Source of the DNA: Gemmatimonadota bacterium
GTDB taxonomy: Bacteria > Gemmatimonadota > Gemmatimonadetes > Gemmatimonadales > Gemmatimonadaceae
Assembly: GCA_028287235.1 (NCBI GenBank)
Contig: JAQBQB010000025.1
Coordinates: 186,001-250,000 of the forward strand
Length of the DNA: 64,000 nt
Direction: 5' to 3'
The position numbers and the translations under genes were made by a program. The notes beneath the pieces were generated by a model. It made no database searches, was not told the DNA's origin, and worked only from the letters and a program-made list of their open reading frames with translations. This document shows, in pieces, positions 28,832 to 33,250 of this stretch (positions are counted from its first letter, which is position 1; each line of letters starts with the position of its first letter).

Positions 28832-28858
28832 CGCTATGCTCGCTATGCTCGCTATACC
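28832..28858. repeat. 9-bp tandem repeat at the 3' end of nth
   Basis: CGCTATGCT occurs twice followed by the variant CGCTATACC, overlapping the final bases of the nth gene. Confidence 0.6.
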
Positions 28859-29526
28859 CGCGATGACGGGCAAAGATCGTTGAGGAAACATATCTCGCAC
28901 TTGGGACGGCGTGCGTCGCAGATCTGGCGGCCGTGCTCGATGAACAGATGCGACAGCATCGTCCAGCTCTCGCGCGGGAAGAGCTTCACGAGGTCCTGTT
29001 CGATCTTCACGGGATCGGTCTGTTTCGTGAGCCCAAGGCGTTGTGTGACGCGGCTCACATGCGTGTCGACGACGACGCCTTCGTTCTTGTCGTAGGCATT
29101 GCCGAGGATGACGTTCGCCGTCTTGCGGCCGACGCCCGGAAGGTCCACCAGCGCGTCCATCGCATCGGGCACGCGGCTGCCGTGCAGTCCGGCCACCGCG
29201 GCGGCCATGCCGATCAGGTTCTTCGCCTTGGTGCGAAAGAAGCCGGCGGACTTGATGATCTCCTCGAGCTCCTCCGGCTTTGCCGCCGCGAGCGCTTCGG
29301 GCGTCGGATACTTCGCGAACAGCGCCGGCGTCACCATGTTGACGCGCTTGTCGGTGCACTGCGCGCTGAGGATGGTGGCGATCAGGAGCTGAAAGGGATT
29401 CCTGAAGTCGAGCGCGCAGTGTGCGTTCGGATAGTGCGCCAGGAGACGCTCGTAGATCACCGCCGCGTACTCCGGGGTCGCCTTCGTTCTCGGCGCCCGC
29501 TTCGCCGCCGTCGTTTTCTTGGACAT
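28852..29526 (-). CDS. nth: Endonuclease III (DNA glycosylase/AP lyase)
   Basis: A 224-aa HhH-GPD base-excision repair enzyme removing oxidised pyrimidines. It shows LIATILSAQCTDKRVN, the helix-hairpin-helix LPGVGRKTANVILG (near 127-140) with the catalytic Lys segment, the catalytic Asp in VDTHVSRVTQRLG, and a complete iron-sulfur Cys set at the C-terminus (C-x6-C-x2-C-x5-C in CDARRPKCEICFLNDLC). The basic N-terminal tail is short. It starts 9 bp after polX, so the two repair genes form one unit. Confidence 0.97.
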   Translation of the reverse strand: MSKKTTAAKRAPRTKATPEYAAVIYERLLAHYPNAHCALDFRNPFQLLIATILSAQCTDKRVNMVTPALFAKYPTPEALAAAKPEELEEIIKSAGFFRTKAKNLIGMAAAVAGLHGSRVPDAMDALVDLPGVGRKTANVILGNAYDKNEGVVVDTHVSRVTQRLGLTKQTDPVKIEQDLVKLFPRESWTMLSHLFIEHGRQICDARRPKCEICFLNDLCPSSRV

Positions 29527-29535
29527 GAGTGTTAT

Positions 29536-31227
29536 CTAATTGCCGAGGCGTCGCGCGCGGGCGAACGCGACGACGTCGTCGGCGCTGCGGGCATTGAGAA
29601 CGTCGCTGCGCTCGAGCCAGCCTTTGCGCGCGATGCCGATGCCAACGTCCATGTTGTCCAATCCGTTCGTCGAGTGCGCGTCGGGGCCGATCTCGATGGT
29701 CACACCGAGCTGCTTCGCCTTGTGCAGATGGCGCCAGTCGAGATCGAGGCGGTGCGGGTCGGCGTTGAGCTCCACGGCCGCGCCCACCGCGGCGGCTTTT
29801 TCGAGGACGGCATCGACGCCGAGCGCATACGGCGCGCGCGCGAGCAGCAAGCGGCCGGTGGGGTGCGCCAGGATGGTGAGGCGTGGATCGTCGAGTGCGC
29901 GGAGGACACGCGCGGTCATCGCGGCGCCGTCCATCGAGAAGCGCGAATGGATCGAGCCCACGACGAAATCGAATCGGTCGAGCAGGTCGTCGCCGTAGTC
30001 CACCTGGCCGTCGGCGAGAATGTCGGCCTCGATGCCCTTGAGCACTCGAAAGCCGGTGAGCGTCGCGTTGAGCGCGTCGATCTCGTCGTGCTGCGCGAGC
30101 ACGGCGTCGCGCTTGAGGCCTCCGGCGTAGAAGGCCGCCTGGGAATGATCGGTGATCCCGATGTAGCTCCAGCCGCGCGCCTGCGCGGCCCGCGCCATCT
30201 CGGCGATCGTGGCCTTGCCGTCGGAGTAGGTGGAGTGGCAGTGCAGGACGCCGCGAATGTCGGACGCGACGAGCAACTCGGGCAGCACGCCGCGCCGCGC
30301 GGCGTCGACTTCACCCATTCCCTCGCGCAGCTCCGGCGCAATGACGGGGAGACGCGCGGCGGCGTACACCTCGTCTTCCTCACGCGCAGACGCGATGACG
30401 GCCGGCGTCTCGATGAATCGCTTCACGTCGGCGACGTGCGCGTCCCCGCCCGTCTCCTCGAAGAACGCGATGCCGAAGCGATCCGGTTCGACGCAGCGCA
30501 GGCGCATGCGCGCACCGTCGACGAACTCGACCGACACCGTTGCGCCGCTGCCGTCGGCGCTTCGTACACCCGGCAAACGGGCGAACGACTGCGCGACCGC
30601 CTCCGGGTTCGTCGTACACGCCGCGACGATGTCGATGCTGCCCACCACCTCGAGCTTGCGGCGCAGCGCGCCGGCCAGCTCGGCGCGCTCCACGAGGGGG
30701 TGACTCCGCACGGACGCGAGTAGCGGCTGCGCTTCGACGAGCGCGTGCGGATAGAGACGCAGCGAGCCATGCGCGCGCGCCGTCGAGATGCCCTCGAGGA
30801 TCTTCGCGGCCGTTTTCGGTCCGAGCTTCGGCAGCGTGGCGAGACGCCCGTCCTGCGCCGCGGCCTCGAGCTCTTCGATCGTCGAGATGTTGAGCGTTTC
30901 GTAAATCTGATGAATTCGCGCCGGGGTGAGGCCGGGCACGTCGAGCATGGCGAGCAACCCTTCCGGCGTCGACTCGCGCAGCTGCTCGAGGTAGCGCGAC
31001 GCGCCCGTCTCGATCAGGTCGCGCACCACCGCCAGCGTGGCGGGTCCGAGGCCGCGGACCGCCGCGAGCTCGCCCGACCGGTTCATTGGGCCGAGATCGT
31101 CGGCTCCCAATGCGAGCAGCGCCTTGGCGGCGCCGACGTACGCCCGCGTCTTGAACGTGTTCTCGCCCTTCAGCTCGAGATATGCCGCGATGCGGGAAAG
31201 CGTGTGCGCGGCCGTGCGTGAGTCCAT
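29536..31227 (-). CDS. polX: PolX-family protein with PHP nuclease and degenerate polymerase site
   Basis: The 563-aa protein has the PolX order: helical 8-kDa-like and HhH domains (about 1-150, RGLGPATLAVVRDL, LPKLGPKTAAKIL), a Pol-beta-like nucleotidyltransferase region (about 150-260) and a C-terminal PHP domain (about 320-560). In the polymerase region the usual GSxRR...DxD motif reads AGALRR...GSIDI (Ser197 in place of the first Asp), and the third catalytic Asp position appears to be Arg242, so polymerisation is probably lost. The PHP motifs are intact: HCHSTYSDG (329-337), ITDHS, GIEADI, GSIHS, HPTGR, NADPHR and DAHS. It is likely a 3'-5' exonuclease or AP-site repair nuclease working with endonuclease III. 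Confidence 0.92.
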   Translation of the reverse strand: MDSRTAAHTLSRIAAYLELKGENTFKTRAYVGAAKALLALGADDLGPMNRSGELAAVRGLGPATLAVVRDLIETGASRYLEQLRESTPEGLLAMLDVPGLTPARIHQIYETLNISTIEELEAAAQDGRLATLPKLGPKTAAKILEGISTARAHGSLRLYPHALVEAQPLLASVRSHPLVERAELAGALRRKLEVVGSIDIVAACTTNPEAVAQSFARLPGVRSADGSGATVSVEFVDGARMRLRCVEPDRFGIAFFEETGGDAHVADVKRFIETPAVIASAREEDEVYAAARLPVIAPELREGMGEVDAARRGVLPELLVASDIRGVLHCHSTYSDGKATIAEMARAAQARGWSYIGITDHSQAAFYAGGLKRDAVLAQHDEIDALNATLTGFRVLKGIEADILADGQVDYGDDLLDRFDFVVGSIHSRFSMDGAAMTARVLRALDDPRLTILAHPTGRLLLARAPYALGVDAVLEKAAAVGAAVELNADPHRLDLDWRHLHKAKQLGVTIEIGPDAHSTNGLDNMDVGIGIARKGWLERSDVLNARSADDVVAFARARRLGN

Positions 31228-31258: not shown

Positions 31259-31714
31259 TCAGTCCTCGACGCCAGCGCTGTGCCGCAGCCGCTCGATGCA
31301 CTCGTGGAGTTGCTTCTCGGTCAGGTCGATCTCCTGCTTGGCGCCGTCGCCGTCGAGCAGGCCGTCGCGCATGGCGATGGCGATCTGGTTGATGTAGCGA
31401 ATCTTCGTCAGTACGTCGTCGGTGACGCGGCGGAGCTTGATGAAGCGCCGCTTTTCCGCCAGCGCGCGGCGATGGCGGAGGCCGAGCTCATGCGGCGTGA
31501 GCCGCCGGGCGAGATCGATCACTTCCTCGCGACTTGCGCCGGGGATGGCCGCGCGGTCGGGAGAGCCCGCGTCGTCCCAATCCTCTTCGGCAAACCAGAG
31601 GCGTCCGACGAACTCGATTCCATCGAACCCCACGCGGCAGGTCACGATGTACCGGCGCCCGAGGTGGTCGATTGTGGCGATGTAGGGGTGTGTCGGTGTC
31701 TCGGGTGCGGACAT
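31259..31714 (-). CDS. Conserved-looking hypothetical protein, 151 aa
   Basis: Not recognised. The first half is beta-rich (YIATIDHLGRRYIVTCRVGF, VGRLWFAEEDWD), the second half helical and basic (LRHRRALAEKRRFIKLRR, DVLTKIRYINQIAIAMRDG). No signal peptide, TM helix or cysteine cluster, so it should be cytosolic. It is the gene before polX on the same strand with a 31-bp gap, so a link to DNA repair is possible but only by position. Confidence 0.6.
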   Translation of the reverse strand: MSAPETPTHPYIATIDHLGRRYIVTCRVGFDGIEFVGRLWFAEEDWDDAGSPDRAAIPGASREEVIDLARRLTPHELGLRHRRALAEKRRFIKLRRVTDDVLTKIRYINQIAIAMRDGLLDGDGAKQEIDLTEKQLHECIERLRHSAGVED

Positions 31715-32863: not shown

Positions 32864-33250
32864 TTACTTACAAGCCGGCTCGCCTTCGGCCGCCGTCGTA
32901 CCGACCGTCGGATTCGTCGTGTTGATGCCGATACCGCAGGTCATGCCGCTGAGCTGCGTGTGCGAGTTCGTCGCGTACCAGTAGCCGGCGCCCGTCGAGA
33001 TGGTCGGGGCGTTCGTGCCGGACGAGTTCTGGTACTTGAGCTGCGAAACCGTCGCGGTGTACTTCGAGCTGTCGGAGAAGAACGCTTCTTCGGCGGTGAC
33101 GAGGTTACGGAGATCGGACTTCATCGCCGTGATGTACGCCTTCGACTTGGTGTTCGCGAACTTCGGGATCGCGATCGCGGCCAGGATGCCGATGATCACG
33201 ACCACGATCAGCAGCTCGATCAGGGTAAAGCCTTTGCGGGTACGCAGCAT
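32864..33250 (-). CDS. Type IV pilin-like protein (PilA/GspG type)
   Basis: A 128-aa prepilin with a short basic leader (MLRTRKG), prepilin peptidase cleavage expected between Gly7 and Phe8, and the N-methylated hydrophobic helix beginning FTLIELLIVVVIIGIL with Glu5 of the mature protein present. The globular part is small, Ser/Thr-rich and has Cys near the end (MTCGIG, EPACK) that may form the D-region disulfide. No other pilus assembly genes lie nearby, so it is an orphan major or minor pilin. Confidence 0.92.
   Translation of the reverse strand: MLRTRKGFTLIELLIVVVIIGILAAIAIPKFANTKSKAYITAMKSDLRNLVTAEEAFFSDSSKYTATVSQLKYQNSSGTNAPTISTGAGYWYATNSHTQLSGMTCGIGINTTNPTVGTTAAEGEPACK

Follow-up and report, generated by a model that had tools for sequence, protein, structure and literature searches.

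The PolX protein encoded in the stretch of 64,000 nucleotides analysed here (the window) is, judging by its residues, very probably a nuclease that has no polymerase activity. The latter is taken as absent because homologues with an altered catalytic triad have none: the PolX proteins of Deinococcus radiodurans (triad AEE) and D. gobiensis (ARE) displayed strong exonuclease but no polymerase activity in vitro, and the D203A mutant of Bacillus subtilis PolX lost its polymerase with the exonuclease still active (PMC9226535). Nuclease activity, in turn, is taken as present because the nuclease residues are intact. Given the motif loss and the behaviour of these homologues, the original prediction of a PolX turned into a nuclease only is well supported, and it is not new in kind. 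The source genome (G000) belongs to the Gemmatimonadaceae; its relatives are numbered G and PolX loci L. The relevant features of the window are the following:

29536..31227, minus strand: gene for a noncanonical PolX of 563 aa (ATG at 31227, stop codon at 29536-29538) with the triad S197/D199/R242 and an intact PHP domain
29539..30252, minus strand: PHP nuclease domain, residues 326-563, with HHHEHHEDH ligands and basic DNA path
30320..30490, minus strand: fingers, about residues 247-302, with the dNTP Lys/Asn and the steric gate lost, and shorter by ~12 residues than in congeners and Thermus
30637..30639, minus strand: AGC codon of Ser197 at the first catalytic Asp position (Tth D198), from alignment and codon reading
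30631..30633, minus strand: GAC codon of Asp199, the second catalytic Asp (Tth D200), kept, from alignment and codon reading
30502..30504, minus strand: CGC codon of Arg242 at the third catalytic Asp position (Tth D243), from alignment and codon reading
28852..29526, minus strand: nth, endonuclease III, 224 aa, starting (ATG) 9 bp downstream of the polX stop codon (TIGR01083, 259 bits; cut-off 211.7)
31259..31714, minus strand: uncharacterised gene of 151 aa, 31 bp directly upstream of polX

The polX reading frame encodes the 8-kDa/HhH, thumb, palm and fingers domains and a C-terminal PHP domain in a single chain, i.e. in the order of bacterial PolX (PolX1). Pfam matched HHH_8, HHH_5 and PHP and no palm or fingers family, and the NCBIfam PolX equivalog scored 416.6 bits, slightly below its cut-off of 426. 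With phmmer, residues 7-560 align with Thermus PolX (3AU2/3B0Y, E ~1e-97) and residues 6-559 with Deinococcus PolX (2W9M). The top structural match of an AlphaFold2 model built from an alignment of 12 sequences (pLDDT 89, pTM 0.78) was Thermus PolX 3au6_A (Z 45.9, rmsd 4.5, 546 residues). Palm strands 198-204 and 240-246 are still present in this model, which predicts a palm domain that folds yet is unarmed.

Opposite D198/D200/D243 of Thermus PolX, the alignment shows S197/D199/R242—an SDR instead of the DDD triad, and thus not the three acidic residues of a canonical polymerase. A destroyed active site with Ser at the first and Arg at the third Asp position had been proposed from the sequence, and the Thermus alignment bears this out, with the second Asp kept. 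Since the AGC and CGC codons are each two substitutions away from GAC/GAT, a single miscall cannot account for Ser197 or Arg242; sequencing error was ruled out on this ground and because congeners carry other substitutions in the same columns. The Ser of the GS motif is likewise replaced, by Ala187 (GS to GA), with the Arg of the motif kept. In the fingers, TGSKxHN reads TGGDAHV, which places D262 at the basic dNTP Lys and V265 at the Asn that corresponds to N279 of Pol beta, the GS cis motif has become GG and the steric gate YF has become EE. The fingers comprise 58 residues, compared with 70 for Thermus and 70-71 for the three congeners, and this loss of 12 residues is confined to the window copy within the genus, whereas the palm retains its full length of 81 residues. 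A replaced triad, lost dNTP-site residues and a retained PHP consensus are the hallmarks by which noncanonical PolX was delineated (Prostova et al. 2022), along with deletions in palm and/or fingers, a frequent though optional feature that here affects the fingers and not the palm.

Retention of D199 and of the GS-motif Arg might suggest that the palm still performs some nucleotidyl transfer via Asp199, making the protein an altered but working polymerase, and there is one report of polymerase activity in the D. radiodurans AEE enzyme (cited, and disputed, in PMC9226535). This is highly improbable: two of the three metal ligands are gone, one of them now being an Arg, a single triad mutation abolishes the polymerase of B. 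subtilis PolX (PMC9226535), and the triads of the congeners differ, reading SDE, NVD and RDQ next to the SDR of the window, one of them (NVD) without even the second Asp. Ser197 and Arg242, whose conservation in relatives was to be checked, are therefore not conserved; a new conserved site was ruled out, and the variety of congener triads reads as drift in a dead site. No second, canonical PolX that could take over polymerisation was found in G000; some other genomes do carry one (e.g. G010, G030, G063 and G250), with no clear relation to the state of the triad.

The claim that all PHP metal motifs are present proved correct, as the nine ligands read HHHEHHEDH, the consensus stated for 98% of altered PolX (PMC9226535). 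Also intact are the DNA-path residues F430, R459, R464, N488, R493 and K535, which correspond, by their spacing from the common PHP ligands, to F440, R469, R474, N498, R503 and K545 of B. subtilis PolX, residues needed for its nuclease activities (PMC6616362). The equivalents of R459, R464, N488, R493 and K535 are kept in 112/112 rows tested.

The further proposal of a two-gene repair unit with nth holds in part. About 150 PolX loci were collected and 146 rows kept, in 114 of which nth lies directly downstream of polX on the same strand, nearly always within -55 to +350 bp. Among related loci with enough downstream sequence, nth adjoins polX in 114/115, nearly all of them from Gemmatimonadota; the clade members without nth are L098 and L120, whose contigs stop at polX or shortly beyond it, and L032, with 914 bp lacking nth. 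On a PolX tree computed without the palm and fingers columns, nth linkage amounts to one change, and in the available flanks no nth was found beside canonical Gemmatimonadota PolX copies, the six from Bacillaceae or other unlinked PolX. The close spacing suggests co-transcription of polX and nth; a scan of the region for sigma-70-like promoters gave none, a type of result that says little in a GC-rich genome. What does not hold is the limitation to two genes, as the 151-aa gene, which has no Pfam, NCBIfam or PHROG match, usually precedes polX in Gemmatimonadaceae, and nth persists where polX is missing. Further upstream, an ORF at 32864-33250 (minus strand) begins MLRTRKGFTLIELLIVVVIIGILAAIAIPKF, a type IV pilin-like N-terminus.

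Two other loci deserve mention. L035 (CAJXCW010000311.1), from an uncultured bacterium of unassigned phylum, encodes an nth-linked PolX with the triad DDR that is 40% identical, so the link may extend beyond Gemmatimonadota. L033 (CALQGY020000094.1), titled Candidatus Kuenenia stuttgartiensis, and L097 (G230, from the window's family) share an identical length of 15,688 and the same PolX match, and the Kuenenia title is therefore probably wrong.

Across the 114 nth-linked PolX proteins, the fingers Lys is lost in all and the fingers Asn in 113. A DDD triad is found in 46 of them, an all-acidic one in 48 and an altered one in 66, the altered triads of the clade taking about 39 different forms. 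Within the clade, the tree requires at least 12 switches between intact and altered triads, and 10 changes of the GS Ser. This Ser is kept in 46/46 DDD members and lost in 61/66 members with an altered triad; of 7 independent pairs with good support, 5-6 show both losses together and none shows them in opposite directions (median p 0.06). Because the fingers Asn, Lys and steric gate are missing even from DDD members, we infer that their loss probably preceded that of the triad and goes back to the common ancestor, a re-gain being formally possible.

Substitution rates differ between the domains. Within the window's genus, dN is 0.14-0.16 for PHP, 0.26-0.33 for the palm and 0.45-0.61 for the fingers, with a dS of about 0.6-1.3 that is high enough to leave the dN ratios by domain rough. 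The dN of the 8-kDa domain is low as well, and in pairs with DDD triads the dN of the palm is close to that of PHP. On these rough ratios, selection in the window's genus appears to maintain the nuclease and not the polymerase. It is tempting, at rather less than even confidence, to view the nth-linked PolX of Gemmatimonadota as a lineage of its own in which the dNTP-selecting residues were lost in a common ancestor, ahead of the metal triad: the 46 DDD members would be living intermediates with metal chemistry but without normal dNTP selection (perhaps capable of ribonucleotide or untemplated addition after Nth), and pure PHP nucleases would have arisen repeatedly. A separate altered PolX occurs in family f5 (L080 in G049, L082 in G189 and L083 in G079), with the triad TDR, the fingers motif TGPPAY, an intact PHP domain and no nth nearby; it represents an independent loss of the polymerase in the same phylum.

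Complete loss of polX has also occurred. Seventeen genomes without a full PolX match of the nth-linked clade still have nth, and in 14 of these a homologue of the 151-aa gene sits upstream of nth, in the place where it would precede polX. One of the 14, L163 (G115), retains a PolX remnant between the two genes, of which the N-terminal 43 residues and residues 475-555 are left, in overlapping frames; either a genuine deletion or a collapse in the assembly may explain it. In the congener G004 (L160), also among the 14, polX is lost and the 151-aa gene homologue and nth are adjacent. The persistence of nth where polX has been lost argues that the unit neither depends on polX nor is obligate. Such losses, the L163 remnant and the fingers deletion, unique in its genus to the window copy, are compatible with plain gene decay, in which the polymerase goes first, the whole of polX later and no lineage-specific role exists. 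That account seems rather improbable, as PHP ligands unchanged in 114/114 nth-linked proteins and the low dN in the PHP and 8-kDa domains point to continued selection on the nuclease where polX is kept.

As to what this nuclease may do, cleaning of 3′ ends after Nth in base excision repair is, with modest confidence, the most likely role. Nth cleavage leaves a blocked 3′ end. In the proposed scheme, Nth would take out an oxidised base and cut the AP site by beta-elimination, generating a blocked 3′ sugar remnant. PolX, which would no longer polymerise, may survive as a DNA-binding scaffold made up of the 8-kDa domain, the thumb and the residual palm that presents 3′ ends to the Mn-dependent PHP nuclease; the latter could then remove the blocked remnant or incise AP sites to yield a 3′-OH for another polymerase. 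This role, with its putative handover from Nth to PolX, is favoured by the conserved adjacency of polX and nth, even though gene neighbourhood alone is no proof of a common pathway. Two observations speak against it: G000 carries two Nfo (endonuclease IV) matches, which might perform the same 3′-end cleaning, and nth occurs without polX in several relatives including a congener, meaning that Nth does not need PolX. No Xth match was found in G000; PolX as the sole AP endonuclease was ruled out by the two Nfo matches.

Alternatively, the nuclease with its dead polymerase could serve double-strand break repair by trimming ends for Ku and a LigD that has no nuclease domain of its own. In G000, the gene for Ku (C28:125427-126185) precedes one for a LigD that comprises a ligase and a polymerase domain and in which Pfam found no phosphoesterase domain, and this combination is the NHEJ-Nuc setting that has been linked to PolX (PMC9226535). 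However, polX sits with nth, away from ku/ligD, and a Ku match is absent from many Gemmatimonadaceae with nth-linked polX (e.g. G042, G050, G062, G063 and G076), making this role unlikely, if worth keeping in mind. At the locus itself (L158; G000:C28:124500-131500), the genes for Ku, LigD (a ligase joined to a primase-polymerase, with no nuclease domain detected) and another ATP-dependent ligase lie side by side, forming an end-joining cluster that lacks the LigD nuclease.

In all sequence features examined, the window PolX belongs to the noncanonical PolX group already described, which was defined by these features, with the absence of polymerase and an active 3′-5′ exonuclease shown on two Deinococcus enzymes (Prostova et al. 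2022; PMC9226535), and whose trend was confirmed by a 2026 survey (PMC12926913). It resembles the D. radiodurans (2W9M, AEE) and D. gobiensis (ARE) enzymes in its altered triad, lost dNTP residues, fingers deletion, intact PHP consensus and domain order, yet its palm measures 81 residues as opposed to 69 in D. radiodurans by the same measure, and, unlike them, it is encoded beside nth. On a tree without Bacteroidetes sequences, D. radiodurans PolX has a long branch that arises from an open fork and places it loosely in the vicinity of the nth-linked clade. The PolX neighbours listed by class in PMC9226535 are LigD, MutS2, ZapA, PHP and ligase; its main text contains no nth link and does not mention Gemmatimonadota. 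In the open-licence literature, no paper on an operon of PolX and endonuclease III was found, nor, in main texts, a description of the nth-linked clade, in which the fingers residues probably went before the triad and the triad was lost repeatedly.

With canonical PolX (Thermus thermophilus 3AU2/3AU6, B. subtilis), the window protein shares the fold (Z 45.9 to 3au6_A), all domains, the PHP ligands and the basic path, but it lacks two of the three catalytic Asp, the GS Ser, the dNTP Lys/Asn, the steric gate and 12 fingers residues. Like palm-less PolX-like PHP proteins (PMC12926913) and Escherichia coli YcdX, it keeps a PHP nuclease-type domain in the absence of polymerase function; unlike these, it still encodes a palm and fingers that are predicted to fold. 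Palm-less proteins of this type also exist in Gemmatimonadota: L048:1999-3105 (G003), L049:2051-3154 (G004; both of the same genus) and L050 encode PHP proteins of 353-369 aa without palm or fingers, whose similarity to PolX lies chiefly in the PHP domain and whose best NCBIfam match is NF005928 (slightly below cut-off for L048).

Taken alone, the window PolX is thus one more member of a described group. The nth-linked clade, by contrast, differs from the noncanonical PolX of PMC9226535 in that triad losses are repeated inside a single clade that also keeps DDD members. Since the forms found in related genomes, beside a fixed neighbour, range from DDD and partly or fully altered to truncated or deleted, it allows a direct test of the order in which the parts of a polymerase are lost, and of Nth-dependent base repair versus end joining.
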